15,631 nucleotides of DNA. Source: a bacterium (lineage in GTDB: Bacteria; SM23-31; JAUVVT01). The stretch lies in the NCBI GenBank assembly GCA_030616165.1, contig JAUWXV010000064.1, forward strand, positions 1-15,631, written 5' to 3'. The position numbers were made by a program, and so were the translations under genes. Below the pieces are notes generated by a model that was not told the DNA's origin, searched no databases, and saw nothing but the letters and a program-made list of their open reading frames with translations. This document shows, one piece after another, positions 82 through 15,631 of this stretch (its first letter is position 1; the number at the start of each line of letters is the position of its first letter).

Positions 82-260
82 TGAAATTTAGAGAATTAAT
101 CGCAGAGCCACAGGGCAAGCCCGAAGGGCAAGGGGGCAAAGAGGAATTTTCGAATTTCCCATCATCTCCTTTGGGAGCAGTTATATTCAATCTTTTAGGG
201 CTATGCTTAACCGGGCTGAGTGTGTTCGTATTTGAACGCCGAAAGTCATATCTTGAATAA
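81..260 (+). pseudogene. Probable C-terminal remnant of an ABC-2 type permease
   Basis: An open frame of 59 codons runs from ATG at 81 to TAA at 258. Its last ~28 residues (from LGAVIFNLLGL to FERRKSYLE) look like the final transmembrane helix and short basic tail of an ABC-2 permease. The first ~25 residues are not protein-like: they translate a dispersed repeat with two 13-bp units at 108-133. No start, RBS or further helices lie upstream, because a TGA in this frame occurs at 69. My reading is that a permease gene was cut down and its 5' side replaced by repeats. The family assignment rests on one helix and on the permease gene immediately downstream; it could also be a random membrane-like stretch. 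Confidence 0.35.
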
Positions 261-2175: not shown

Positions 2176-2889
2176 ATGTTACAAGCAATCGATTTAACTA
2201 AACGCTATGAAGATGACCTTTTGGCTCTGGACAATTTGAATTTAGAAATCAAAGAAGGTGAGATTTTCTGTTTGTTGGGTGCTAATGGAGCCGGTAAAAC
2301 CACTGCCATTAACCTGTTTCTGAACTTCATAGAGCCCACCTCCGGAACGGCTCTAATTAATGATATCGATGTAAACAAAGACCCGTTGGAAGCTAAGGAG
2401 TATGTTTCATACGTATCGGAGAACGTAATGCTTTACGGCAACTTCACTGCCCGTCAAAATCTCGATTACTTTGCCAAACTTGGTGGGAAAAAGGATTTGA
2501 CTAAAGAGGATTATCATAAACATATGAGCAAGGTCGGACTTCAAGAGGAAGCATTTGAAATGCGGGTGAAAAATTACTCCAAAGGAATGCGACAAAAATT
2601 GGGTATAACCATTGCTATCATTAAAGATGCGCCGAATATTTTATTGGATGAACCGACTGCCGGTCTTGACCCTACAGCGGCAGCCGATTTCATCAAGATT
2701 CTAAAAGGGCTGCGTGATGATGGGAAATCAATTCTTATGTGTACACATGATATATTCCGCACCAAGACTGTCGCAGACCGTGTGGGAATAATGAAAGAGG
2801 GACGGTTGGTGATGCTGCGAACACGGGAGGAATTTTTGGAAGAAGATTTGGAAAAAATCTACCTGGAGTATATGCAGGAGGCAGTGTGA
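2176..2889 (+). CDS. ABC transporter ATP-binding protein
   Basis: Soluble nucleotide-binding subunit, 237 residues, the normal size for partners of ABC-2 permeases. Walker A is GANGAGKTT (35-43), the signature is YSKGMRQKLG (134-143) in the degenerate form usual for this subfamily, Walker B with the catalytic Glu is ILLDEPTAGLD (155-165), and the switch His is H191 in CTHD. The Q-loop position reads VSEN (80-83), so Glu stands where many ABC proteins have Gln; this is common among CcmA/NatA-like exporters. AGGAG at 2164-2168 precedes the ATG. It should pair with the permease encoded at 616-2025 to drive export of an unknown substrate. It may be co-transcribed with it, although a 150-bp gap leaves room for its own promoter. 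Confidence 0.92.
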   Translation: MLQAIDLTKRYEDDLLALDNLNLEIKEGEIFCLLGANGAGKTTAINLFLNFIEPTSGTALINDIDVNKDPLEAKEYVSYVSENVMLYGNFTARQNLDYFAKLGGKKDLTKEDYHKHMSKVGLQEEAFEMRVKNYSKGMRQKLGITIAIIKDAPNILLDEPTAGLDPTAAADFIKILKGLRDDGKSILMCTHDIFRTKTVADRVGIMKEGRLVMLRTREEFLEEDLEKIYLEYMQEAV

Positions 2890-3203
2890 GAAAAATGTGT
2901 CAAAATTCCCATTTTTCCCATATATGAGAGTTTCCGGGAATTTTGTGCCAGGGGTTAATTTGCTTATAATCAAGGATTAAAGCCAAATATTTATCCGATA
3001 AAAATCAGGATTTTTTTGGAGGATTTTTAGAATTTTATGTTTTTTGATTTTCATTTTGATTTAATAATAAAAAAAATAGTGAGGACAGAACCCACAGGGC
3101 AAGCAATGTTCTGTCCCTACAAGTAATATAAATACATATCAAAAGACTTAATACCTCATGCCTGCGTTATTATGTATATATTTATTTTAAAATTACAAAT
3201 TTT
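2890..3203. other. Gap with a long-loop inverted repeat and a 13-bp-interrupted hairpin
   Basis: Just after the ATPase gene a 10-bp inverted repeat (CAAAATTCCC at 2901-2910, GGGAATTTTG at 2936-2945) could fold in the transcript end; without a T tract I do not call it a terminator. At 3083-3116 lies a hairpin element whose arms GGACAGAAC and GTTCTGTCC are separated by a 13-bp unit (3092-3104), ending in the CCCTAC tail shared with other repeats here. I see no gene. Confidence 0.5.
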
Positions 3204-3587
3204 TTAAATAGAATTTTCATTTTTAAGTTTTTTGTTTTTTACACTAATCCGGGCTAAATTGATTAACTGGTCAGGAGTCAATTCTTCTGATTTTTTAACG
3301 GCGTCATATCTTTCGAGATAGAGTTTTATTGCTCTTACATCTCCCTGACGAGCCTTTTCAAATAAAGCAACCTCTAATTCGTGTATTTGTTCTTCGTTTT
3401 CCACAGCATTTGCTTCTTCAGCGAGCTCCAAGAGTTTTTCATCCCTGAGCCATCTGTAAAATGTTGATTTGCTTATATCGAGTTCTTTCATAATTTTTGC
3501 CGAATTGGGTTTTTTATAATTTATGGTTTTTAAGAAACCGACAAATTTTCTCTTCTGAGGAGAAAGTTTTTGTTTATTATTGCTCAT
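3204..3587 (-). CDS. Small helix-turn-helix protein, phBC6A51/terminase small-subunit-like
   Basis: 127 residues. A helix-turn-helix is visible at about 28-49 (SAKIMKELDISKSTFYRWLR), followed by an acidic helix and the segment LEVALFEKARQGDVRAIKLYLER (71-93). That second segment, with its GDVRAIKLYLE core, is characteristic of phBC6A51-type phage homeodomain proteins, which bind DNA and resemble small terminase subunits. No other phage gene is near, so this is probably a stray or domesticated phage gene. A good minus-strand promoter lies at 3679-3707 and a palindrome at 3636-3657 sits in its leader, which suggests autoregulation (inference). There is no clear Shine-Dalgarno before the ATG. 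A specific role cannot be given. Confidence 0.7.
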   Translation of the reverse strand: MSNNKQKLSPQKRKFVGFLKTINYKKPNSAKIMKELDISKSTFYRWLRDEKLLELAEEANAVENEEQIHELEVALFEKARQGDVRAIKLYLERYDAVKKSEELTPDQLINLARISVKNKKLKNENSI

Positions 3588-3635
3588 AAATAATTAATAT
3601 ACAGGATATTATATTTATTTAAAACATGTAAACAG

Positions 3636-3657
3636 ATGTTATATTATATAATAACAT
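3636..3657. promoter_or_regulatory. Palindromic operator candidate upstream of HTH gene
   Basis: Arms ATGTTAT (3636-3642) and ATAACAT (3651-3657) are perfect inverted repeats around an 8-base AT centre. The site lies between the predicted transcription start and the ATG of the HTH gene at 3587, where a repressor would block elongation or initiation. The palindrome is seen; binding by the adjacent HTH protein is inference, and AT-rich palindromes also arise by chance. Confidence 0.35.
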
Positions 3658-3678
3658 TTTTATTATTAGTTATATATA

Positions 3679-3707
3679 AATATAACAAATTTATTGGGGG
3701 AAGTCAA
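3679..3707 (-). promoter_or_regulatory. Sigma-70-like promoter for the HTH gene
   Basis: On the minus strand TTGACT (3702-3707) and TATATT (3679-3684) are separated by exactly 17 bp, close to the vegetative consensus TTGACA-17-TATAAT. The transcript would begin near 3672 and give a leader of about 85 bases before the HTH start codon at 3587. Confidence 0.55.
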
Positions 3708-4660
3708 GGATTATTTTGGTGGAGATGAAAATTAAGGATGAACCACAGAGGACACAGAGAAAAAAGAAAGAGAGAACACAGAGAGAGGAAGATGTTGGAA
3801 AAAAGAATTAACCGCAGACCCACAGGGCAGGGTCGCAGAGGGAGAGGAGAGTGAATGGATTCCCCCGAGTACTCGGGGGAATGACAAAGGGGGGCGGGAA
3901 TGACGAAATATAAATGAAAAATGTCAAAGATCAAATGTCATCCCGAGGAATCGGGACAAAGACGAATGAATGAAATAATAAAAATGAAAAATTTAAAAAT
4001 CCAAATGTCATCCCGAGGAATCGGGACAAAGACGAATGAATGTCATCACGCTAAAGATTGAAGGGCGAACAAGTTCGCCCCTACGGAAGATGAAGATGTT
4101 TAGGGCGAATCCAAAGGACAAGCCCAAAGGACAGGCCCAAAGGACAAGCAAGTTTGCCCCTACGGTGGGATGTTTTTTGATGTTGGTGACAACATTAATT
4201 CAATGAAGAAGTTAGAAATTGAAAGTAGTATGGACAGACAAGAATGTCTGTCCTACTCAAATATAAAAAAGGTTAAACCGCAAAGGTGCGGAGAGGAAAT
4301 AGAGGGATGGGATTGCAACGTCGCTTCGCTCCTCGCAATGACAAAAAGTGTGCAGGTCAAGGAGGGGGAGTTGATTTTTGGAAGGGCGAAGGTGAAGAAC
4401 ATATTCGCCAGTATGAGTTCAATTGTTTGAGATTTCTCCGCTTAGGTCGTCCGCTAAAGTGGATCCGCCTCTGGCGGAAAATAACAAGGATAGGGTTAAT
4501 CCCGTGGGTCATGAAAATAATTGTAAGGACAGAACACTGTTCTGTCCCTACATCTAATTTCTTTAATCTGTGTAATCCGTGAAATTAGTGGTTCTATTTT
4601 AGGAATAAAACTGGCAAGAGTTGGCAGGATGTCTAGAAGGAACTCATCAAATTGACAATT
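3708..4660. repeat. Repeat-rich gap with composite dispersed repeat (copy A, about 3979-4380)
   Basis: No believable gene; open frames on both strands are translated repeats. Contents in order: a 13-bp unit at 3820-3832; a perfect 24-bp palindrome at 3859-3882 (arms ATTCCCCCGAGT / ACTCGGGGGAAT); two exact 41-bp repeats 70 bp apart (3932-3972, 4002-4042) centred on TCCCGAGGAATCGGGA; hairpin GGGCGAAC-AA-GTTCGCCC (4063-4080); a second such hairpin opened by three tandem 13-bp units (4111-4149); hairpin GGACAGACA-AGAA-TGTCTGTCC (4232-4253); an ATTGC...GCAAT element near 4313-4342; TCCGCC/GGCGGA hairpin near 4463-4478; and hairpin GGACAGAAC-ACT-GTTCTGTCC (4527-4547). The order from 3979 to 4380 is repeated at 11489-11896. 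Confidence 0.75.
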
Positions 4661-5836
4661 TTACTTTTGCGAAAAAGGGATAATCTTTATGCATACAGGT
4701 GAAGGGATTTCGAGAACGCTGCCCGCCAGGATCAGGTTTCCCGTTTGAGAATTAATCCGAAATGTAACAATGTTATTGCTTCTCTGGTTTGCTGCCAATA
4801 AAAAGGTTCCGGTTGGGTCAATGGCAAAGTTTCGCGGGGTTCTGCCCTGTGTCGGTTGATGACCGACATAAGTTAATCTGCCTGTTTGTACGTCAATCGC
4901 GAAGATAACAATGCTGTCGTGACCACGATTGGAGCCGTAAATAAAGTTTCCGGAAGGAGAAACGTGAATGTCGGCGCAGGAGTTTCTGCCTGAGAAATCT
5001 CCAGGCAGGGTTGAGACTGTCTGTATTTCTTTGAGACTGCCGCGAGTTTCATTATGTAAAAACGCCGTTATCGTGGAGTTAAGTTCATTAATGACATAGG
5101 CATATTTGCCGCCGGGATGAAAAGTGAAATGACGCGGACCGGCACCGGGTTTTAGTTTAACCGAGGGTTCATCATCAGGAATCAACTTTCCTTTTTCAGT
5201 ATCAAACCTGTATATCATTATTTTGTCGATGCCAAGGTCAGCAGCAAATGCGTACCGATTGGAAGGAGCCATAATGATAGAATGAGCATGAGGGGCTTTC
5301 TGCCGCTCAGGGTCCAGACCGGAACCCTGATGCTGAACAAAATCCGTCATGGCACCAAGCCTGCCGTCAGAGAGTACAGGAAAGACCGAGACATTTCCCC
5401 CACCATAATTTGCCGTTAAAACAAATTTGCCAGTGTTGTCAACAATCAGATGACAGGGGGCTGCCCCGCGTGTTGGCTGCTGATTTAAAAAGGTCAGGTC
5501 ACCGGTTTTCTGATTGATTGAGAATGCGCTGACTGCTCCACCAGTCCTGCCATCAAATTTCGAGACCTCGTTAACCGAATAGAGATAGCGATGCTGCGGA
5601 GCAATTGCCAAAAAAGAGGGATTAACCAAACCCTTTACTGTTTTTACCAATGTTAGTTTACCCGAGGATAAATCCAACCGACAGATGTATACTCCCTCAC
5701 TATCACCGGAAGTATATGTTCCAACATAAACAATGAGTTCTTTAGTCTCAGCCTGTTCTGGAAAAGATATGAATACGCCGAGAGTTCCAATGTTGATTAT
5801 CTTTAAAAAATCCCGTTTTGTGTAAAGATGTTTCAT
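4661..5836 (-). CDS. Lactonase-family beta-propeller protein (6-phosphogluconolactonase-like)
   Basis: 391 residues if it starts at the ATG at 5836, which is chosen over an upstream in-frame ATG at 5878 because GGAGG lies 7 bases before it. The N-terminus MKHLYTKRDFLK plus a hydrophobic stretch to about residue 30 resembles a Tat signal with Lys-Arg for the twin Arg, so the protein is probably exported. The rest is a seven-bladed propeller of the YbhE/lactonase type: YVGTYT (37-42), PCHL (127-130), ANYGGGNVSVFP (142-153), PHAHSI (182-187), GPRHFTFHPGGKYAYVINE (233-251), SNRGHDSIVIF (302-312), GRTPRNFAIDPTG (331-343). Family members hydrolyse 6-phosphogluconolactone or other lactones, and an exported version more likely acts on another sugar lactone or carboxy-muconolactone-type ring (inference). 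It stands alone, between two repeat fields. Confidence 0.88.
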   Translation of the reverse strand: MKHLYTKRDFLKIINIGTLGVFISFPEQAETKELIVYVGTYTSGDSEGVYICRLDLSSGKLTLVKTVKGLVNPSFLAIAPQHRYLYSVNEVSKFDGRTGGAVSAFSINQKTGDLTFLNQQPTRGAAPCHLIVDNTGKFVLTANYGGGNVSVFPVLSDGRLGAMTDFVQHQGSGLDPERQKAPHAHSIIMAPSNRYAFAADLGIDKIMIYRFDTEKGKLIPDDEPSVKLKPGAGPRHFTFHPGGKYAYVINELNSTITAFLHNETRGSLKEIQTVSTLPGDFSGRNSCADIHVSPSGNFIYGSNRGHDSIVIFAIDVQTGRLTYVGHQPTQGRTPRNFAIDPTGTFLLAANQRSNNIVTFRINSQTGNLILAGSVLEIPSPVCIKIIPFSQK

Positions 5837-6118
5837 CAAATTACCTCCAGTTATTTTTTGTAGGTAGTGACCTGGCACAATACGTAGAAACGTTAAAAAT
5901 AGAAATCCAAGAGGAAAATCCGGGAAAGTTATTAATGCTTATAATATTTATAAATTAAAAATTATATATTTAATGTCAATAAAAAATTAGAAAAATGCAC
6001 CAGGAGTATAAACAAATAATTACCCGAAAATTGCGATAGGTTATTTAAAATTAATATAAACAGATAATTATTTGAATCAAATAAGTGCTAAAAAAAATCG
6101 ACCTTTTTGTCATTGCGA

Positions 6119-6310
6119 GTCCCGAGTAATCGTCCCGATGGATCGGGATCGCAATGACAGGGGGTTGCGAGATTTCTCGACTTCGCCCCGAAGTCTCGGG
6201 GCTACGCTCGAAATGACAAAGGGGGAGAGAAATTGCCCCGAGGTATCGGGATTAAGAAACCACTTCGTCGTCCCGAGTAATCGTCCCGATGGATCGGGAT
6301 CGTAATGACA
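6119..6310. repeat. Paired 41-bp repeat with nested inverted repeats
   Basis: Two copies (6119-6159 and 6270-6310) differ at one base and flank a GC-rich stretch that itself holds CCCCGAAGTCTCGGGG-type inverted sequence (about 6186-6202). The composition is very unlike the AT-rich surroundings. The unit is related to the TCCCGAGGAATCGGGA repeats at 3932-4042. Confidence 0.7.
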
Positions 6311-6532
6311 TTTTATTTTTTAGATTTTAGTAAAACATCTGATTTTTTTTGAAATTATTATTATTGTATCACAATTTTCAGGTAATTAGTTTTATCAGAA
6401 CATTTGTACTTAATAAATGAGTCCGCTCTAAAAACCGCTAATTACGCGAATTTCATGAATTTAATATTACACAATTTAATAAAAATCAATTAGTTTTGAT
6501 TAGCGAAATTCGCAGTTTTAACCTTTTTAAAC

Positions 6533-6561
6533 TTGACTCATAAATTGAAGCAATATATGTA
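6533..6561 (+). promoter_or_regulatory. Possible sigma-70-like promoter
   Basis: TTGACT at 6533-6538 and TATGTA at 6556-6561 are separated by 17 bp. It lies about 315 bp before the HTH-receiver gene and about 50 bp before a 32-codon hydrophobic frame, so it could serve either. AT-rich DNA yields such matches by chance. Confidence 0.3.
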
Positions 6562-6613
6562 GTATTATTGATATATAAAAAAATCTGTCCAATCTTTTTT
6601 GCAGTTTGAGCAA

Positions 6614-6712
6614 ATGTTAAAAAAATTAATAGTTTACATCATAAATTCCATCGGTGCTGCGTTTTCCTCTCTGCTTACCCAGATTTTTCCCTTGTTTTCG
6701 AATTTATTATAA
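6614..6712 (+). CDS. Possible 32-residue hydrophobic peptide
   Basis: An ATG frame of 32 codons encodes a peptide starting MLKKLIVYIINSIGAAF and continuing with mostly hydrophobic residues, which would form one membrane helix with a basic N-terminus. A promoter-like sequence ends about 50 bp upstream. There is no strong ribosome binding site and no relative that I recognise. Small toxins and regulatory peptides look like this, but so do chance frames; I keep it only as a candidate. Confidence 0.2.
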   Translation: MLKKLIVYIINSIGAAFSSLLTQIFPLFSNLL

Positions 6713-6876
6713 AATCCCGCTTATAAAGCTGCATTAGAATAAAACACACCATCAAACTCAATATTTTATTAAAATAATAAAATTTTTCTTGATAAAAATA
6801 AAAATTATATGTAGATTATTTTCATTAAATTAAACAAATCAATCAAATCAATCATAACATACATACGTAAAAGATT

Positions 6877-7443
6877 ATGGCAAAAGACGTTTTTTCTACA
6901 TTCAAGGCAGCCGATTATTGTAATTCAAGCGATTCATCAATCAAAAGATTTATAAATTCCGGCAAGCTGAAAGCCTATAAGACTCCCGGCGGGCATTACA
7001 GGATTTTAAAGGATGATCTTCTGAGTTTTATGAAAGAAAATTATATCCCTATTCCTGAAAAAAGGGAGATAGTCAGAAAAAAAATACTTGTTGTAGATGA
7101 TGATGAACAGGTACGTGAAGGTATGGCTAAACATTTAAGATTGAACGGCCATAATTTTGACGTAACCACTGCCGAAGATGGTTTTGAGGCCGGTATTTTA
7201 TTTACACAGTTTGTGCCGGATTTAATTGTTCTGTATTTAATGATGCCCCATACGGATGGATTCAATGTTTGTAAAAAGATAAACAGTAATCCAATGATAA
7301 AGAACACAAAAATATTGGTTATAACAGGATATGCAAATGAAAAAAATGTAAAAAAAGCCTATGAATGCGGAGCGGATAAAGTTTTGGCAAAACCGATAGA
7401 AAAAGAGGAATTATTAAATGAAATTAATTCATTAATTTCATAA
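6877..7443 (+). CDS. Excisionase-like HTH fused to a receiver domain lacking the phosphoacceptor Asp
   Basis: 188 residues. Residues 5-53 form a MerR/excisionase-type DNA-binding domain (FKAADYCNSSDSSIKRFINSGKLKAYKTPGGHYRI; note the GGHYR wing). Residues 68-188 are a CheY-like receiver: acidic cluster VVDDDE (72-77), T150 in VITGYA and K172 in LAKPI are all in place. The phosphorylation site should be the Asp before LMMPHTDGF, but residue 120 is Tyr (codon TAT at 7234-7236). One base change (G to T) from GAT would explain it. The protein is therefore either an atypical, phosphorylation-independent regulator or a recently mutated one. It heads a signalling cluster, 185 bp before a histidine kinase. 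Family members of this architecture are presumed transcription regulators; its targets are unknown. The ribosome binding site is weak. Confidence 0.85.
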   Translation: MAKDVFSTFKAADYCNSSDSSIKRFINSGKLKAYKTPGGHYRILKDDLLSFMKENYIPIPEKREIVRKKILVVDDDEQVREGMAKHLRLNGHNFDVTTAEDGFEAGILFTQFVPDLIVLYLMMPHTDGFNVCKKINSNPMIKNTKILVITGYANEKNVKKAYECGADKVLAKPIEKEELLNEINSLIS

Positions 7444-7474
7444 AGAGGTTTAATAGATGGCACGGCAAAAAGTG

Positions 7475-7496
7475 GAGACATGCCATGGCATGTCTC
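7475..7496. repeat. Perfect 22-bp palindrome with CTAC tail
   Basis: GAGACATGCCA and its exact complement form a loopless palindrome followed by TACA, placed between the HTH-receiver gene and the histidine kinase gene. The layout (inverted repeat followed by CTAC) matches the other hairpin repeats in the window. In a transcript it could act as a processing or attenuation structure between the two genes. Confidence 0.65.
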
Positions 7497-7628
7497 TACA
7501 ATATTAACCTAAATCAATATTTTACAATTGAATATTTTTGTAAAAAGATTTAAAAATAAATTATTTTGACTTTTTGCCGTCGTATATTAATAAAGAATTT
7601 CATTTTACCTTAAAACAGAGAGTTTTAC

Positions 7629-9182
7629 ATGAATAATAATAAGAAAAAGACAAAAGAACAGTTACTGAATGAAGTTAATCAGTTGAGTCGACGGATTAGT
7701 GAATTGGAGACATCAGAATCCAATCGTAAGAAGGTGTGTGAGTTGCAGTGTGAGAACGAAGAAAAATACAGGGAACTTGCAGACAGTATTAATGATGTTT
7801 TTTTTGCAATGGACAAGGATTTAAGATATACGTATTGGAATAAAGCATCAGAAAAATTGACAGGGATTGCAATGAAAGATGCTATTGGAAAATCCATTTT
7901 TGATATTTTTCCGGATACTGAGGATACAAGAAGAGCAGTGTCGGTATACCGCGATGTATTGAAGAGGCGGCAATCCCAAAATTTTGTAAATGAGTACAAT
8001 CTTAAAGGAAAAACCTACTTCTTTGAAATAAGCGCATATCCTTCCAAGAATGGAATATCAGTTTTCGTCAAGGACATCACCGAACGCAAGAAAGCAGAGG
8101 AAAGAATTCAAAATCAAAGTAAATTTTTAGAAAATATATTAGAGTCTATCACCAATCCTTTGTATGTTTTAAATATAAATGATTACACAATTAAGATGGC
8201 AAATAAAGCAGCCCGATTCGGCAGTATATCGGAAAGATCAACTTGTTATGAACTTACTCATAAAAGTGACGAACCATGCGTTTTTCCGGAAGATTTCTGT
8301 CCGCTTGAGGAAATAAAAAAAACTAAAAAACCGGTAACGGTTGAGCATATTCATTACGATAAAGATGGAAATGCCAGGTTTCTTGAAATTCACGGCTTTC
8401 CAATTTTTGATAGTGAAGGAAATGTATTTCAAATGATCGAATATTCCATTGACATCACTAAACGCAGAAAGGCGGAAGAAGAATTAGCCGAGTATAAAAA
8501 ACAACTTCATCAATCAGAACGATTAGCAGCGACGGGCAGGCTCGCGGCGAGCATCGCACACGAGATAAATAATCCGCTTCAGGCAATTTCATTTAATTTA
8601 GATTTTGTAAAAAATGAAATTCCTGATGATTTTAAAGAAAAAAGCAGCATTGAGCAGATTAAGATTGGCACCAAAAGAATTAAAAGTACTGTCAGACAAC
8701 TTCTTGACATACATCGTGGTAAAATTGAGGTAAAAGAAAAAGTAAATGCGAATGATATTATTGAAGCAACTTTGAACTTATTTAAAAACCAGTTAGTGAT
8801 AAATAAAATTGAAGTTAAAAAGAGTTTGAGCAGTGATATTCCTTTGATAAACGGTTTGACACAGGAATTATACCAAGTATTCATGAATCTAATTTTAAAC
8901 GCCCAAGATGCGATGGAAAAAGGTGGTATTCTAAATATAAGCACCAAAGCAAAGGATAATAAACTAAGAATAATTTTTGAAGATAATGGTTGCGGGATTT
9001 CGAAGGAAGAGATAGACCATATTTTTGAACCTTTTTACACCACGAAACCTGTTATGCTTGGAACCGGATTAGGATTATCAACTTCCAAAGGTATTATTGG
9101 AAGTTATGGTGGTGAAATCGATGTAAAAAGCACAATTGGAAAAGGCTCTACTTTTACTATTACTTTTCCAATTATTAAATAA
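7629..9182 (+). CDS. PAS-PAS sensor histidine kinase
   Basis: 517 residues, no transmembrane helix, so a cytoplasmic sensor. Order: N-terminal coiled coil (5-50), PAS 1 (about 45-150, ending in VKDITERKKAEE), PAS 2 (about 165-283, ending in DITKRRKAEE), HisKA with H311 in SIAHEINNPLQ, and an HATPase_c domain with N box MNLILNAQDAM (419-429), G1 box EDNGCGIS (451-458), F box EPFYTTK (467-473) and G2 box GTGLGLS (478-484). All catalytic boxes are intact. PAS 2 carries C206, H211, C217 and C224 in a CYELTH...PC...CPLEE pattern that recurs in redox- or metal-responsive PAS domains, so an iron-sulfur, zinc or thiol sensor is possible (inference). The receiver gene starts 20 bp after its stop, and they very likely form an operon. 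The kinase would phosphorylate the downstream receivers. Confidence 0.93.
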   Translation: MNNNKKKTKEQLLNEVNQLSRRISELETSESNRKKVCELQCENEEKYRELADSINDVFFAMDKDLRYTYWNKASEKLTGIAMKDAIGKSIFDIFPDTEDTRRAVSVYRDVLKRRQSQNFVNEYNLKGKTYFFEISAYPSKNGISVFVKDITERKKAEERIQNQSKFLENILESITNPLYVLNINDYTIKMANKAARFGSISERSTCYELTHKSDEPCVFPEDFCPLEEIKKTKKPVTVEHIHYDKDGNARFLEIHGFPIFDSEGNVFQMIEYSIDITKRRKAEEELAEYKKQLHQSERLAATGRLAASIAHEINNPLQAISFNLDFVKNEIPDDFKEKSSIEQIKIGTKRIKSTVRQLLDIHRGKIEVKEKVNANDIIEATLNLFKNQLVINKIEVKKSLSSDIPLINGLTQELYQVFMNLILNAQDAMEKGGILNISTKAKDNKLRIIFEDNGCGISKEEIDHIFEPFYTTKPVMLGTGLGLSTSKGIIGSYGGEIDVKSTIGKGSTFTITFPIIK

Positions 9183-9202
9183 ATGTTTTTAACGAGTTTA
9201 TT

Positions 9203-9874
9203 ATGGGAAAAGAGAGTATACTAATCGTCGATGATGATATTCAAGTGTTGTCAAGTTATAAAAGAGGATTAGAGGAAGATAATTATAATACAACAACTGT
9301 TAAAAGTGGAGAAGAAGCTCTAAAGTTGTTAAAAGAGCAAAAGTATAACCTTATTCTTTTGGATATCGTGATGGAAGGAATAAATGGGTTTCAGGTTTTG
9401 GAAGAGGTAAAAAAACTTTCTCCTGAAACAGTTGTAATTCTCATCTCAGGATATGGAACAATTGAAACTATGATTGAGGCGTTGAGGAAAGATGCAATTG
9501 ATTATATAGTTAAGCCCTGCGATAAAAGAGAATTAAAGTTCAGAGTTAAAAAAGCCTTAGAAAGACAACAATTAGGAATTAAAGCCAGAGAAGCTGAAAT
9601 TTATCAAAAAATGTCAGAAACCCTGGGGGCAGTCGCTCATGAACTGAGCAGTCCCCTGACTGCATTAATCGGAAATGTTGACATGCTTACAATGGATTTA
9701 CCAATAGAACATCCAATGTTTGAACAACTGTTAGATATTACTATTTCCGCGGAAAAAATGGCTGTAATAATCAATAAAATGAAAGATATTAGAGGCATTG
9801 AAACGAAACAATATACAAAAGATTCAAAAAGCCCGAAGAAAAAACCGTCCTGGTGGTCGATGATGAAAAAGTAA
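9203..9874 (+). CDS. Receiver-HisKA protein without ATPase domain (probably the 5' part of a frame-interrupted gene)
   Basis: 223 residues. Residues 5-120 are a complete receiver: D10-D12, phosphoacceptor D54 in LILLDIVMEGINGF, S82 in LISGYG, K104 in YIVKPC. Residues 133-200 form a HisKA-like helical hairpin with H146 in GAVAHELSSPLTALIGNVDML. No HATPase_c follows. The frame ends in an un-protein-like tail PSWWSMMKK. In the -1 frame the sequence continues without interruption into a second receiver (to 10233); the switch point is the run of six A at 9839-9844. One extra A there gives a continuous REC-HisKA-REC protein of about 344 residues. A programmed -1 slip (AAA AAA read after G), a real split, or a sequencing error are all possible. 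Such a protein could shuttle phosphate from D54 through H146 to the second receiver. Confidence 0.85.
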   Translation: MGKESILIVDDDIQVLSSYKRGLEEDNYNTTTVKSGEEALKLLKEQKYNLILLDIVMEGINGFQVLEEVKKLSPETVVILISGYGTIETMIEALRKDAIDYIVKPCDKRELKFRVKKALERQQLGIKAREAEIYQKMSETLGAVAHELSSPLTALIGNVDMLTMDLPIEHPMFEQLLDITISAEKMAVIINKMKDIRGIETKQYTKDSKSPKKKPSWWSMMKK

Positions 9875-10233
9875 TAACCTCAATGGTCTCAAATTTTCTT
9901 ACAAAGAATGGATATGATGTTGACACTGCTGAAAGCGGTATAAAAGCACTAAAGATGATAAAAAACAAAAATTATTCGATCGTTATTTTAGACGTATGTA
10001 TGTCTCAAATTGATGGTTATGAGACACTCCAAAAGATGAATAAGTTTTACACAGAAAAGCAAGTACAAATTACATCAACGATCATGATAACGGGATATGA
10101 TGTTGAAGATATCTTACAAAAATGTAAAGAAATCGGTGCCTACACTGCTCTTCATAGACCCTTTAAACTCTGCGTTTTGCTTGAAACAGTCAAGCATGCT
10201 GAGAAATTTATGAGAAAATATCAATCAAGATAA
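9853..10233 (+). CDS. Receiver domain, likely the 3' part of the interrupted REC-HisKA-REC gene
   Basis: 126 residues from a GTG at 9853; the receiver fold really begins four codons earlier (KTVLVVDDE), so an independent start at GTG would cut the first beta strand and no ribosome binding site precedes it. This favours translation as an extension of the preceding frame, which it overlaps by 22 bases. Visible residues, numbered from the GTG: acidic pair D3-D4, phosphoacceptor D47 in VILDVCMSQIDGY, T80 in MITGYD. The usually invariant Lys before Pro is R102 (HRPF), a conservative change that often slows or alters phosphorylation signalling. No output domain follows, so it is a terminal acceptor or protein-interaction module. 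Confidence 0.78.
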   Translation: MVDDEKVITSMVSNFLTKNGYDVDTAESGIKALKMIKNKNYSIVILDVCMSQIDGYETLQKMNKFYTEKQVQITSTIMITGYDVEDILQKCKEIGAYTALHRPFKLCVLLETVKHAEKFMRKYQSR

Positions 10234-10372
10234 TTTCTATATGTCAGAACTATGGCGATTTGAAGATACCCGGGAGAAGGATTTCTTGAACAATTTTTAC
10301 ACCCGGCGGTTTTTTTCCGCCTTCGGCGTAATCTTGCATGCTGAGGGACAAGACTGTTTCTTTATATTTTTT
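10234..10372. other. Short gap after the signalling cluster
   Basis: Contains GGCGG-T7-CCGCC (about 10306-10322), which can fold into a small hairpin but lacks a T tract on the correct side for a clear terminator. A 49-codon plus-strand frame (10241-10390) reads MSELWRFEDTREKDF... and resembles no family I know; it runs into the antisense of the Doc pseudogene, and I do not call it a gene. Confidence 0.4.
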
Positions 10373-10787
10373 TCATTCAGTTATCCTTGATGTTCTACTA
10401 TCAAGCCATTGAACAAATTCAGTGAAATTTACTTTATTTTTTGCTATATTTAAAGCCATATCAACTACTTTTGAATCAATTTTCATATTATAAACATTCA
10501 ATTCCAGGAATATATTCTACATGTCTCCACTCCAGTTCGCTTGTTACCATCGTGAAAGACGTGATTAACGATTATTCGCCAAGCGATTGCGGCCGCTTTC
10601 TCAATAAGTTTTGGAAAGGGAGTATGACCGAAAAGAGAACCCTGAATCTCATAAAGTACATGCTCAAGGGATCCAGGGTTTGCTAAATTTCTATCACCTT
10701 CGAAAAAATAACCCCAAAATTTTCGATCATTAGGCGATTGATTTCAACAATATCTTCAATTGTTAGTACTTTGAAAGTTCTTTCCAT
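10373..10787 (-). pseudogene. Doc/Fic-family toxin gene broken by two frameshifts
   Basis: Reading from ATG at 10787, the frame begins MERTFKVLTIEDIVEINRLM, typical of death-on-curing proteins, then fails at a run of four C (10712-10715). One inserted base restores GGYFFEGDRNLANPGSLEH..., ending with the full Fic signature HVFHDGNKRTG (10531-10563). A second break at the TATAT tract near 10511-10514 must be repaired to read RIFLELNVYNMKIDSKVVDMAL to a stop at 10373-10375. The repaired protein has about 138 residues, the size of Doc. Doc enzymes inactivate elongation factor Tu by phosphorylation; Fic relatives AMPylate. The ATG overlaps the end of the GIY-YIG gene by 25 bases, so the two were translationally coupled. 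Either the toxin has been killed, or both breaks are sequencing errors. Confidence 0.82.
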
Positions 10788-11161
10788 ATATTGGCGTGCT
10801 TATTTAGGCTTCGTTCAAGACTTGTAATAACAGCTGGTTGGGCTTTTGGCTTATCTTGCGATCTGGTTCGACTTGGTTTATCTCTAAGTAAGTTATACTT
10901 AGGTTTAACTCTGGCAATAATATTTGCCTCTTTACTTGCTGCTTCAGATATACTGCTCATTTGCTCAATCCTGACTTTTGAGCCAGGAATTTTACCTAAA
11001 TGCTCCTTAACTCTCTCACGAACCCTACCTTTCTTGGCAACACCTGTATAATTATTATTATTGTTTTTTGTTAGAATTTTATAAACAACTGGCTTATTAT
11101 TAGGAAGTTTATTTATATCATTTTCCTTAAATTTTACAGTCTTTGTTTTTTCTGTAGCCAT
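10763..11161 (-). CDS. Small GIY-YIG-domain protein coupled to a Doc toxin gene
   Basis: 132 residues. Residues 24-92 show the GIY-YIG pattern: VVYKI (25-29) for the GIY strand, YTG (38-40) for YIG, the basic helix GRVRERVKEHL (45-55) with the catalytic-position Arg, then E78 in SKEANIIARVKP and the terminal Asn in KPKYN (86-90). Thus the core Tyr, Arg, Glu and Asn of the nuclease family are present. The C-terminal 40 residues are basic and probably disordered, with a helix near 112-130. The stop lies inside the first codons of the Doc-like gene. A place upstream of Doc is where an antitoxin normally sits, so it may neutralise or regulate the toxin, or form a composite defence module (inference). 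No Phd-like antitoxin is seen. Confidence 0.72.
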   Translation of the reverse strand: MATEKTKTVKFKENDINKLPNNKPVVYKILTKNNNNNYTGVAKKGRVRERVKEHLGKIPGSKVRIEQMSSISEAASKEANIIARVKPKYNLLRDKPSRTRSQDKPKAQPAVITSLERSLNKHANIWKELSKY

Positions 11162-11985
11162 AACATTTCATCTTATTTAGATTTTATATTCAAAAAGATA
11201 TATACTGATATTTTGATAATTAAAAGTGTTTTTTAAATTAATAATGATTTTTAATTGATTTGATAAAAAAAATTAAAAATACAATCATAATATCTTATAC
11301 TTAACTAAAACAAAATAACCGAATCACAAATATCTATGCACTACTGTAATATTCAGCAATCCGGTTTATTAAGTTTGTGAGAAATTGTTTATTTAAAATA
11401 TAATGTAAAAATGGATAAATGTCAAGGGGAAATGGGGAGATTTTTTATTTAGATAATATATTGGTTTATAAGGAATTATGAGACGGATAAATGAAAAATG
11501 TAAAAATCTAAATGCAAAATGAATGTCATCCCGCTAAAGATTGAAGGGCGAACAAGTTCGCCCCTACGGAAGATGAATATATATAGAGCGAATCCAAAGG
11601 ACAGGCAAGTTCACCCCTACGGTGGGAGATTTTTTTTGATGTTGGTGACAACATTAATTCGATGAACAAGTGATAAACTGAAAGAAGTATGGACAGACAA
11701 GAATGTCTGTCCTACTGTATTAATTTAAGATTGAGTCCAAAGGGATATGGCGTCAAGGAGAAGTTTATTTATTAATCGCAGAGGGACGGAGGGTGCGGAG
11801 ATGAAAGAGAGGGATGGGATTGCCACGTCTCCCGCAAAGCGGGATCCTCACAATGACAATAAATGTGTAGGTCAAGGAGGGGGAGTGAGTTTTTTTGTGT
11901 GGATTCCTCCCCGCAAAGGCGGGGAGGAAATGATCCCACATGCTGCGGAATAAGACCACTGATTTTAATTTTTATATAGTTTTTG
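11162..11985. repeat. AT-rich leader plus composite dispersed repeat (copy B, about 11489-11896)
   Basis: 11162-11450 is AT-rich DNA upstream of the GIY-YIG gene and must hold its promoter, though none stands out. From 11489 the sequence follows copy A (3979-4380) element by element: hairpin GGGCGAAC/GTTCGCCC (11546-11563), the same hairpin type opened by a single 13-bp unit (11594-11606; three in copy A), the ATGTTGGTGACAACATTAATTC-type stretch near 11638-11660, hairpin GGACAGACA/TGTCTGTCC (11691-11712), the GGGATGGGATTGC element (11811-11823) and GTCAAGGAGGGGGAG (11871-11885). Beyond this is another inverted element with CCCCGC/GCGGGG arms near 11910-11926. No gene is present. Confidence 0.75.
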
Positions 11986-12069
11986 CGGAGGATGAGGGAG
12001 TCGAACCCCCAAGGGCTTGCACCCGGCGGTTTTCAAGACCGCTGCCTTACCTGTTAGGACTAATCCTCC
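11986..12069 (-). tRNA. tRNA-Ser (anticodon UGA)
   Basis: The minus strand folds into a class II tRNA. The acceptor stem is GGAGGAT (12063-12069) with ATCCTCC (11987-11993) and a G discriminator; the D stem is GTC/GGC; the anticodon stem GCGGT/ACCGC encloses CTTGAAA, giving anticodon TGA, which reads UCA; a long variable arm with GGG/CCC follows; the T arm is GGGGG-TTCGACT-CCCTC. The long variable arm and anticodon agree on serine. CCA is not encoded in full. It lies 34 bp downstream of dprA on the same strand. Confidence 0.95.
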
Positions 12070-12103
12070 ATAAAACTAATATAATAAATATTTTTGACAA
12101 TTT

Positions 12104-13198
12104 CTATAATTTTATGAACAGTTTCCCCGGAAGTTGTTTAACCAATTCCTTCAGTTCTAAATTAAGTAATGTCGATAAAGCAGATGATGTTGAAACACTT
12201 GCATTTTCTGAAATTTTATCAATGTATAATGGATTTTCAGAAAGAACCTCAATAATCTTTTTTTCTTCTTCGGAGAGTGTTATTTCTACCTCATGCTTTT
12301 TTTCTTTCTTTTTTAAGCCCTCTAAATGATTTTTAAGTTCTACTATAACATCATCAACAGACTGAACAAGTTTAGCGCTTGATTCCTTAATGAGTTTGTT
12401 GGTGCCGGCGCTTTCAGGACTGCTTATTTTACCGGGAACAGCGAAGACTTCACGATTTTGTTCGAGTGCAAGGTTTGCCGTTATGAGTGCACCACTTTTT
12501 TCGCCCGCTTCAACAACAATTACACCCAATCCCAGTCCACTGATTATTCTGTTTCTTCTTGGGAAGTTTCCGGGGTCGGGTTTGGTGCGGAAAGGGAATT
12601 CCGATACAACCGCTCCATTTTCGATTATTCTGTAAAAAAGTTGTTTGTTCCCACTTGGATATATGATGTCTAAACCGCACCCAAGGACTGCTATTGTCCT
12701 CCCTTTCGCTTTTAATGCACCCTCATGAGCTGTTGAATCTATTCCATACGCCATACCACTTATTATCGTGAGACCTTTTTCTGACAGTTCTTCGGACAAT
12801 TTACCCGCGGCAATTTTTCCGTATGGAGAAGGGTTTCTTGCTCCTACTATGCTTATTGCAAATTGGTCATCAGGAATAATATCCCCCTTTACAAATAAGA
12901 ATATAGGCGGGTCATATATATTTTTCAGATTCTTTGGATAGTTTTTATCCCAATACGTGATTATTTTTGATTTTGTCTTATCAAGTATTTTTAACTGGGC
13001 ATCAGCATATTTATCTTTTTCAAACTTTTTGATATTTTCTGCGATTTTTATGTTTATCCCATCAACTTTTTGCAGTTCTTTTATCGAAGATTTGAATACA
13101 TTTTCAGGGCTTCCGAAAAAGGCAACAAGATTTCTGAACCTCGTGGGACCGATATCAGGAACTCCAGAAAGGGCGAGCATTTCTCTTGTGTTTAACAA
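12104..13198 (-). CDS. dprA: DNA processing protein DprA
   Basis: 364 residues. DprA loads RecA onto incoming single-stranded DNA during natural transformation and protects it from nucleases. An N-terminal helix-hairpin-helix/SAM-like region (1-65) precedes the Rossmann-fold core (about 70-290), with SIVGARNPSPYG (116-127), IISGMAYGIDSTAHEGAL (145-162), VLGCGLDIIYP (171-181), FPRRNRIISGL (212-222) and KSGALITANLALEQNREVFAVPG (234-256), all classic. A short charged linker leads to a C-terminal winged helix (about 305-364, the DprA_WH type). The start is TTG at 13198, with GGGAGG 10 bases upstream; no better ATG exists until codon 7. Its promoter region and first 25 codons are duplicated at 15278-15631. 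Confidence 0.95.
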   Translation of the reverse strand: MLNTREMLALSGVPDIGPTRFRNLVAFFGSPENVFKSSIKELQKVDGINIKIAENIKKFEKDKYADAQLKILDKTKSKIITYWDKNYPKNLKNIYDPPIFLFVKGDIIPDDQFAISIVGARNPSPYGKIAAGKLSEELSEKGLTIISGMAYGIDSTAHEGALKAKGRTIAVLGCGLDIIYPSGNKQLFYRIIENGAVVSEFPFRTKPDPGNFPRRNRIISGLGLGVIVVEAGEKSGALITANLALEQNREVFAVPGKISSPESAGTNKLIKESSAKLVQSVDDVIVELKNHLEGLKKKEKKHEVEITLSEEEKKIIEVLSENPLYIDKISENASVSTSSALSTLLNLELKELVKQLPGKLFIKL

Positions 13199-13221
13199 GG
13201 GTCTTTTACCTCCCTGATTTT

Positions 13222-13243
13222 ATTACCCAAAAATTGCGATAGG
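13222..13243. promoter_or_regulatory. 22-bp conserved upstream motif (three copies in window)
   Basis: ATTACCC, one variable base, then AAAATTGCGATAGG, found at 13222-13243 before dprA, at 15376-15397 before the truncated dprA copy (part of the duplication) and at 6019-6040 in the region upstream of the lactonase gene with a single mismatch. In each case the neighbouring gene is on the minus strand. An operator or promoter element is possible; a dispersed repeat is the alternative. Confidence 0.45.
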
Positions 13244-13301
13244 ATGCATAATTAATATCTAAATAAGAAATTGTATGAATCAAAATGATGAAATAATATT
13301 G

Positions 13302-13442
13302 AACAGACAGAAATGTCTGTCCTACCTACTGACAGACAGGAATGTCTGTCCTACCTACTGACAGACAGAAATGTCTGTCCTACCCACTGACAGACAGGAA
13401 TGTCTGTCCTACCTACTGACAGACAGGAATGTCTGTCCTACT
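13302..13442. repeat. Tandem array of five 29-bp hairpin units
   Basis: Units start at 13302, 13331, 13360, 13389 and 13418. Each holds GACAGACA-GGAA-TGTCTGTC (first arm slightly changed in unit 1, GAAA in units 1 and 3) followed by CCTACCTACT. The last unit ends in CCTACTAAAA. Each unit can fold as an 8-bp hairpin, and the hairpin equals single dispersed copies at 4232-4253 and 11691-11712. There are no spacers, so it is not a CRISPR array. Confidence 0.92.
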
Positions 13443-13491
13443 AAAATAATACTGATTTAAGGGCGGACCCAAAGGACAAGCAAGTCCGCCC

Positions 13492-15274: not shown

Positions 15275-15352
15275 CTAAACAAGATTTCTGAACCTTGTAG
15301 GACCGATATCAGGAACTCCAGAAAGGGCGAGCATTTCTCTTGTATTTAACAA
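15275..15352 (-). pseudogene. Truncated dprA copy (first 25 codons)
   Basis: TTG start with GGAGG in the same place as the intact gene, then codons for MLNTREMLALSGVPDIGPTRFRNLV, followed directly by TAG (15275-15277), where the duplicated sequence ends. Only the helix-hairpin-helix start is encoded, so there is no DprA activity. It may still be translated as a leader peptide before the four-gene cassette downstream. Confidence 0.85.
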
Positions 15353-15631
15353 GTATCTTTTACCTCCACGATTTTATTACCCAAAAATTGCGATAGGATG
15401 CATAATTAATATCTAAATAAGAAATTGTATGAATCAAAATGATGAAATAGTATTGAACAGACAGGAATGTCTGTCCTACCTACTGACAGACAGGAATGTC
15501 TGTCCTACCTACTGACAGACAGGAATGTCTGTCCTACCTACTGACAGACAGGAATGTCTGTCCTACCTACTGACAGACAGGAATGTCTGTCCTACTAAAA
15601 TAATACTGATTTAAGGGCGGACCCGAAGGAC
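15278..15631. repeat. 354-bp direct repeat, copy 2 (continues past window end)
   Basis: Matches 13124-13477 without gaps. It contains a 22-bp leader motif (15376-15397) and a five-unit 29-bp array starting at 15456, 15485, 15514, 15543 and 15572, again without spacers; its units are more uniform than those of copy 1. Similarity is still running at the last base of the window, so the true length is unknown. Confidence 0.93.

Follow-up and report, generated by a model that had tools for sequence, protein, structure and literature searches.

A 13-bp hairpin unit with a CARG tail occurs as precise, probably mobile insertions among the intergenic repeats of a bacterial genome

Well over a hundred copies of a 13-bp mini-hairpin unit are dispersed in the genome of a bacterium of the GTDB lineage SM23-31, where they occur as precise insertions, often inside other small repeats. 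The units were recognized in a stretch of 15,631 nt (contig JAUWXV010000064.1 of assembly GCA_030616165.1; hereafter, the window), which is contig C192 of a 3.74 Mb draft genome (G000; 343 contigs, 90% complete) and whose intergenic stretches are A+T-rich and densely filled with repeats. The insertions are characterized by pairs of filled and empty sites that differ by precise multiples of 13 bp (13k bp), a target preference, a structure with compensatory changes, arrays of mixed units, an intergenic location, and restriction to one family-level lineage. Judged from these sequence patterns, the units themselves are probably mobile, as a family of small dispersed insertions with the anatomy of a hairpin plus a CARG tail. 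This retains the core of an earlier reading made from the window alone (hereafter, the original prediction), namely a tiny unit that has spread to many places, often within hairpin repeats, and in exact multiples of its own length.

Precise insertion at filled and empty sites

Copy counts were taken from whole-genome searches and not from the ~0.83 Mb of the genome sampled for analyses of local context, a sample enriched for unit-bearing contigs and including most unit sites. Exact matches to CCAMAGGRCARGC numbered 97 genome-wide against 0 for a reversed-pattern control, and 155 against 15 when one mismatch was allowed; these controls, together with the deletion scan described below, rule out a chance origin. 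Unit arrays are almost always intergenic, with only 1 of 119 lying within an open reading frame (ORF) of at least 150 aa, though such ORFs make up 73% of the sample.

In the deletion scan, which covered 112 arrays, a segment was removed and the resulting 8+8 bp join was required to occur elsewhere in the sample. Removing exactly 13k bp restored known sequence for 43 arrays at offset 0 and for 35 at offset +1, against 0–1 when 13k ± 1 bp was removed near the same offsets and 0–3 at offsets at least 40 bp away. A motif-free indel scan, listing every insertion of 4–45 bp between copies of dispersed repeats, returned 13 bp as the commonest insertion length (36 events, versus 3–30 at other lengths), and most of these 13-bp inserts were units of the hairpin plus CARG type. 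Empty junctions were restored with an ambiguity of at most 1 bp, that is, no target duplication beyond ~1 bp was detected at insertion.

Filled and empty counterparts were found in hairpins of the repetitive extragenic palindrome (REP) type, in ACCRCAGAG repeats, and in the CACCAACAGAG repeat. L017, filled with CCCACAGGGCAGG, and L069, which is empty, have 10 mismatches per 200 bp on each side (~95% identity), and L077 bears the CAAG version at the same point as L017 (right flank, 11 mismatches over 200 bp; left flank, 3 over 90 bp); the local difference of either filled copy from L069 consists of exactly 13 bp plus scattered substitutions. Flanks are closer still in the filled/empty pair L117 and L120 (1 mismatch in 137 bp on the left and 1 in 28 bp on the right), while L053 has one more unit than L049, with 3 mismatches in 60 bp on the left and none in 60 bp on the right.

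Every unit listed in the original prediction was found at its coordinates, the register used here (Y...CARG) being set 1 bp further to the left, such that 3092–3104 becomes 3091–3103. Its observation that excising 13 bp restores a normal hairpin agrees with the deletion scan, and the match of flanks to empty sites after removal, which it had proposed as a check, supports insertion. The empty hairpins that it named, GGACAGAACACTGTTCTGTCC (4527–4547) and GGGCGAACAAGTTCGCCC (4063–4080 and 11546–11563), were confirmed, as was the pair of paralogous cassettes with three units versus one: ~3981–4257 and 11488–11716 align with a single 26-bp gap at the units. Less accurate was its description of the hosts as otherwise perfect hairpins, given the imperfect arms (GAGCGAA/TTCACCC) of the filled hairpin at 11586. 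Units and host hairpins in the window are as follows (^, insertion point).

107–119, + strand: unit GCCACAGGGCAAG, in a CGCAGAG-type repeat
120–132, + strand: second, different unit CCCGAAGGGCAAG, with a GAA loop
486–498, + strand: unit CCCACAGGGCAGG inserted at AAACCA^CAGAG, non-hairpin
510–522, + strand: unit CACACAGGGCAAG
523–535, + strand: unit CCCACAGGGCAAG
3083–3116, no strand: filled hairpin GGACAGAA/TTCTGTCC, then CTAC (GTAG-tagged REP type)
3091–3103, + strand: unit CCCACAGGGCAAG inserted at GGACAGAA^CAATGTTCTGTCC
3819–3831, + strand: unit CCCACAGGGCAGG inserted at ACCGCAGA^G, direct repeat, non-hairpin
4063–4080, no strand: empty host hairpin GGGCGAACAAGTTCGCCC, then CTAC
4103–4109 and 4149–4159: GGGCGAA and CAAGTTTGCCC, host of the three-unit array
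4110–4122, + strand: unit 1 of 3, TCCAAAGGACAAG, with a T1:A9 pair
4123–4135, + strand: unit 2 of 3, CCCAAAGGACAGG
4136–4148, + strand: unit 3 of 3, CCCAAAGGACAAG
4527–4547, no strand: empty host hairpin GGACAGAACACTGTTCTGTCC; same cassette filled in L047 and L078
11546–11563, no strand: empty host hairpin GGGCGAACAAGTTCGCCC, in the paralogous cassette
11593–11605, + strand: single unit TCCAAAGGACAGG, where the other cassette has three units
13461–13491, no strand: filled hairpin GGGCGGA/CAAGTCCGCCC, then CTAC
13468–13480, + strand: unit CCCAAAGGACAAG
15622–15631, + strand: partial unit CCCGAAGGAC, truncated where the contig ends; the surrounding sequence duplicates the 13468 region at 96.6% identity

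The last of these lies in a 354-bp duplication (13124–13477 and 15278–15631; 342 of 354 positions identical), and the contig ends within the unit of the second copy. Within the duplicated segment are the beginning of dprA, on the complement strand, together with the region upstream of it, a five-fold array of GGACAGA REPs, and the GGGCGGA hairpin in its filled form. The five-fold array (13304–13442 and 15455–15595) consists of head-to-tail GACAGACAGGAATGTCTGTCCTACCTACT-like units, that is, tandem GTAG-tagged REPs. Elsewhere in the window, a 132-aa ORF on the minus strand (10763–11161) gave a borderline match to GIY-YIG (21.8 bits, cut-off 22.6).

Unit anatomy and related inserts

The register that best restores empty sites is Y1 C2 C3 - N A/C A - G7 G8 R9 - C A R G; in this register, the 13-bp unit consists of a minimal hairpin (stem of 3 bp, loop of 3 nt) with a 4-nt CARG tail after it. 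Positions Y1 and R9 covary among first units, with 57 C/G and 23 T/A combinations and mismatched classes of 6 and 3 (p = 8e-13), and they continue to do so when identical flanks are collapsed (46 C/G, 13 T/A, mismatched 4 and 2; p = 1e-8). Moreover, the stem is replaced by compensatory pairs (as in the form CAC-ACA-GTG-CAAG) in the related inserts CACACAGTGCAAG, CACACAGTGCACG, and CACAGTGTGCAGG, the last of which has 42 copies, all in G000. Relatives of other lengths comprise the 12-bp inserts CACCAGTGCAAG and CCCCAAGGCAAG and a 19-bp insert with a 6-bp stem, CCCGCCAGAGGCGGGCAAG (CCCGCC-AGA-GGCGGG-CAAG; 28 copies in the sample), a variant of which sits in the loop of GGGCGGGTAAA^CCCGCCC. Given the compensatory, 12-bp, and 19-bp relatives, it is the hairpin plus CARG tail, and not any single sequence, that defines the family.

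Target preference and host repeats

Insertion takes place after A and usually before CA (A^CA), in a single orientation relative to the site: of 33 distinct contexts, 27 have A before the insertion, and the two bases that follow are C in 21 and A in 21. Roughly 39 of 119 arrays lie in REP-type hairpins and 6 of 119 in an arm of the CACCAACAGAG inverted repeat, with most of the remainder in ACCRCAGAG-type direct repeats or at other A^C sites. Hosts thus include the hairpins GGACAGAA/TTCTGTCC and GGGCGAA/TTCGCCC, the direct repeats AACCACAGAG and ACCGCAGAG, and the CACCAACAGAG inverted repeat. Under a strict hairpin-arm test, 23 of 104 sites were flanked by arms of at least 7 bp, versus 34 of 479 control positions, and inside hairpins the cut tracks the sequence A^CA, sometimes 1–2 bp below the loop.

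These context counts reject hairpin loops as the only target. The original prediction had taken loops to be the general target and placed units in hairpins throughout, stating that a majority outside hairpins would speak against it; this majority is what we found, with about one third of sites in REP-type hairpins and many of the units in the window (107–132, 486–535, and 3819) lying outside hairpins. Its placement of sites next to CAA fared better, given that adjacency to CA is supported.

Some host repeats also vary in small steps of their own. The ACCACAGAGAACACAGAG repeats differ by steps of 9 bp (ACAGAGAAC) in G000 (e.g., L055, 4149–4183, and L054, 4998), which is a second small repeat layer beneath the 13-bp units and is reminiscent of the heptamer repeats that reportedly host small dispersed repeats (SDRs) in Nostoc.

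Composition of multi-unit arrays

Different units are mixed in 37 of 41 multi-unit arrays. Such heterotypic arrays indicate that different units were stacked, rather than one unit duplicated, and they rule out simple tandem expansion (i.e., minisatellite growth by duplication of the same unit), which the original prediction had assumed. One cassette illustrates the series of no, one, and two different units, being empty in L121, carrying CCCGAAGGGCACG in L049, and having TCCACAGGACAAG added 5' of it in L035, L052, L053, and L057. Nearly all units that follow another unit (46 of 47) begin with C, which is expected if additions before a unit occur only at A^C. The arrays reflect stacking of separate insertions more than slippage.

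Distribution across genomes

Among six genomes of the phylum, units were found only in G000 and in G001, a member of another genus of the same family with 16 copies. Five short GGACAGAA hairpins were found in G001, all empty, and none of the G001 units examined with their context sits inside a short GGACAGAA hairpin; the CACAGTGTGC unit was not found in that genome. The empty hairpins suggest that hairpins of this type acquired units later, within the lineage of the window. The single match in G003 is in G+C-rich, coding-looking sequence and is probably due to chance.

When 84,980 species genomes were scanned for pairs of adjacent units, a search that single or diverged units could escape, no further dispersed family was detected; a viral scan gave no match. 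Two of the three matches in the species genomes look like chance (at least one is in a coding stretch). The third, in a Bacteroidetes metagenome-assembled genome (L160, 2498–2522), is an isolated array, TCCGCAGGATAGG-CCCGCAGGACAAG-CCCGCAGGACAAG, with the same architecture, and no dispersed unit family was found in that genome.

Host REPs and candidate enzymes

REPs are elements of 20–40 bp with stems mostly of 6–9 bp and a GTAG tag at one foot (PMC3733652, PMC8266576); they are non-autonomous, and a transposase is presumed to move them. In the genome studied here, the commonest 4-mer after hairpins is CTAC, the complement of GTAG (97 of 957; next 4-mer, 21). The PF01797 profile gave seven matches in the genome, two of four tested proteins scored over the NCBIfam cut-off of NF047646 (REP-associated tyrosine transposase, RAYT), and GTAG-type hairpins flank some of the RAYT genes. 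The CTAC that follows the hairpins and the presence of RAYT genes identify the host hairpins as ordinary GTAG REPs (PMC3733652). One RAYT gene (L165, ~2795–3284, minus strand) lies within long arrays of another GTAG hairpin (GTAGCCGGGCCTGTCCCCAGGCTCGG...), in a REPtron-like arrangement.

Proposed mechanism and alternative explanations

If mobile, the units would have spread by copying to numerous intergenic sites, most of them in other repeats, with insertion after A and usually before CA, and a filled site could take a further, different unit, giving rise to short mixed arrays. We infer that the units may move as single-stranded hairpins, with cutting and joining carried out in trans by an enzyme that the unit does not encode. 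A tentative candidate for the mover, to be held with well under even confidence, is an HUH (Y1) enzyme, for example a REP-associated tyrosine transposase of the genome or a relative. Similarly tentative is the idea that the 13-nt hairpin and tail alone might suffice for recognition, cutting, and insertion at A^CA by a cellular enzyme, stacking on itself and parasitizing REPs; if true, few mobile DNA units known from bacteria would be as small.

Several observations weigh against mobility of the units or against this choice of enzyme. The 3-bp stem is very weak, and units after the first in an array often have a mismatched C1...A9 (12 of 47). Unit subtypes show a partial association with particular host repeats (TCCAAAGGACAAG in GGGCGAA, CCCACAGGGCAGG in ACACAGAG). 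The 16 units of G001 occur in a genome that gave no PF01797 match, but its completeness is only 70%. Finally, under the guide rule of RAYTs and IS200/IS605-like transposition, the dinucleotide that is cleaved pairs with the guide tetranucleotide at the foot of its own strand (PMC8266576); CYTG predicts CA, whereas the junction on the CYTG strand is TG^T, so by that test the unit is not a REP.

The main rival holds that units are immobile and that a few ancient insertions per host repeat were spread by amplification or gene conversion of long host repeats. Copying of this kind surely contributes to the spread: filled and empty copies lie in long repeats duplicated across the genome, and a partial sorting of subtypes by host is expected if the spread owes much to the copying of whole host repeats. 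Nonetheless, we consider it unlikely that the units are immobile, as one unit occurs in 33 distinct junction contexts, in unrelated hosts and nearly all at A^C or A^G, the copies in L017 and L077 differ locally from L069 by the exact 13 bp and scattered substitutions, and heterotypic stacking requires new units from elsewhere. Replication slippage or template switching at hairpins could in principle make and expand units without a dedicated enzyme, and would draw on their hairpin-forming, tandemly repeated nature, on CA or CAR at the right junction as possible microhomology, and on an agreement between the unit tail and the third base of the target above expectation (p = 0.017, deduplicated). 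It is improbable, given the predominance of heterotypic arrays, an insert length of exactly 13k with almost nothing at 13k ± 1, and the same sequence at unrelated sites, which local slippage could not produce.

RNA-mediated insertion, in which a hairpin RNA with a CARG tail would be copied into DNA by a reverse transcriptase, has reportedly been suggested for the SDRs of Nostoc, and both the compensatory structure and the intergenic location fit a structured RNA intermediate. However, none of the six genomes from the phylum yielded a reverse transcriptase match (PF00078) in a search with positive controls, a result that is not final because the genome is 90% complete; we regard this route as quite improbable here. 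Exact boundaries without target duplication would also be expected of precise excision, in which ancestral units were lost and short hairpins left behind. This is the least probable of the alternatives, and very improbable, since the empty forms are near-perfect palindromes, the short GGACAGAA hairpins of G001 are all empty while its examined units lie elsewhere, and the CACAGTGTGC unit was not found there. Mobility at the level of the unit thus remains the reading that we favor, with copying of host repeats as a contributor.

Comparison with known systems

The spread of repeats too small to contain transposon ends is an unexplained problem in bacterial genomes. The genome described here offers a clean system for it, with an exact length and target, filled and empty sites with near-identical flanks, traceable subtypes, and arrays that record the order of events. 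It places the lower size limit at about 13 bp and points to layered targeting among small repeats. At 13 bp, the unit would rank with the smallest DNA units described that seem to be mobile; comparable elements that are slightly larger are known.

The unit resembles the GTAG REP/RAYT system (REPtron) in being a hairpin with a 4-nt tag on one foot (read on the opposite strand, a CYTG-hairpin) but differs in its length of 13 bp, its 3-bp stem, and its CYTG tag, placing it outside the 20–40 bp and GTAG that define GTAG REPs. Like elements that undergo single-strand transposition of the IS200/IS605 type, units insert without target-site duplication. The mitochondrial GC clusters and double-hairpin elements of fungi are larger, and yeast GC clusters have a short target duplication. 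These fungal elements, which the units resemble in this respect, are small mobile hairpin-formers in A+T-rich noncoding DNA (PMC4478555; Paquin et al. 2000 via PMC7218506).

The original prediction knew of no such element, which overlooks the SDRs of Nostoc and the organelle palindromic repeats inserted in one another; a literature search directed at 13-bp insertion families in bacteria turned up no closer match. In Nostoc punctiforme, the SDRs of Elhai et al. 2008 (Genome Res 18:1484) are reportedly 21–27 nt long and are said to show compensatory mutations, embedding in tandem heptamers, and self-nesting. The units share with these cyanobacterial repeats a structure backed by compensatory changes (Y1:R9 covariation and the CAC/GTG relatives) and precise insertion within other repeats, but differ in length (13 bp, with relatives of 12 and 19 bp), in their 3-bp stem with a CARG tail, in the target A^CA, and in residing partly in REP hairpins. 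Passages of other reports likewise characterize SDRs as very small, dispersed, thought to be mobile, and located within other repeats (PMC3116915, PMC4390886, PMC2884548), with a size of "some 20 bp" (PMC2884548). The organelle palindromic repeats of the green alga Volvox are given as 11–77 nt long (average 50 nt) and often inserted within each other, the portion of that report used here mentioning no conserved tail or target rule (PMC2670323). The 13-bp units are the same kind of phenomenon as the SDRs and the Volvox repeats, and are set apart by lineage and size, by their tail and target rule, and by the use that they make of REP hairpins.

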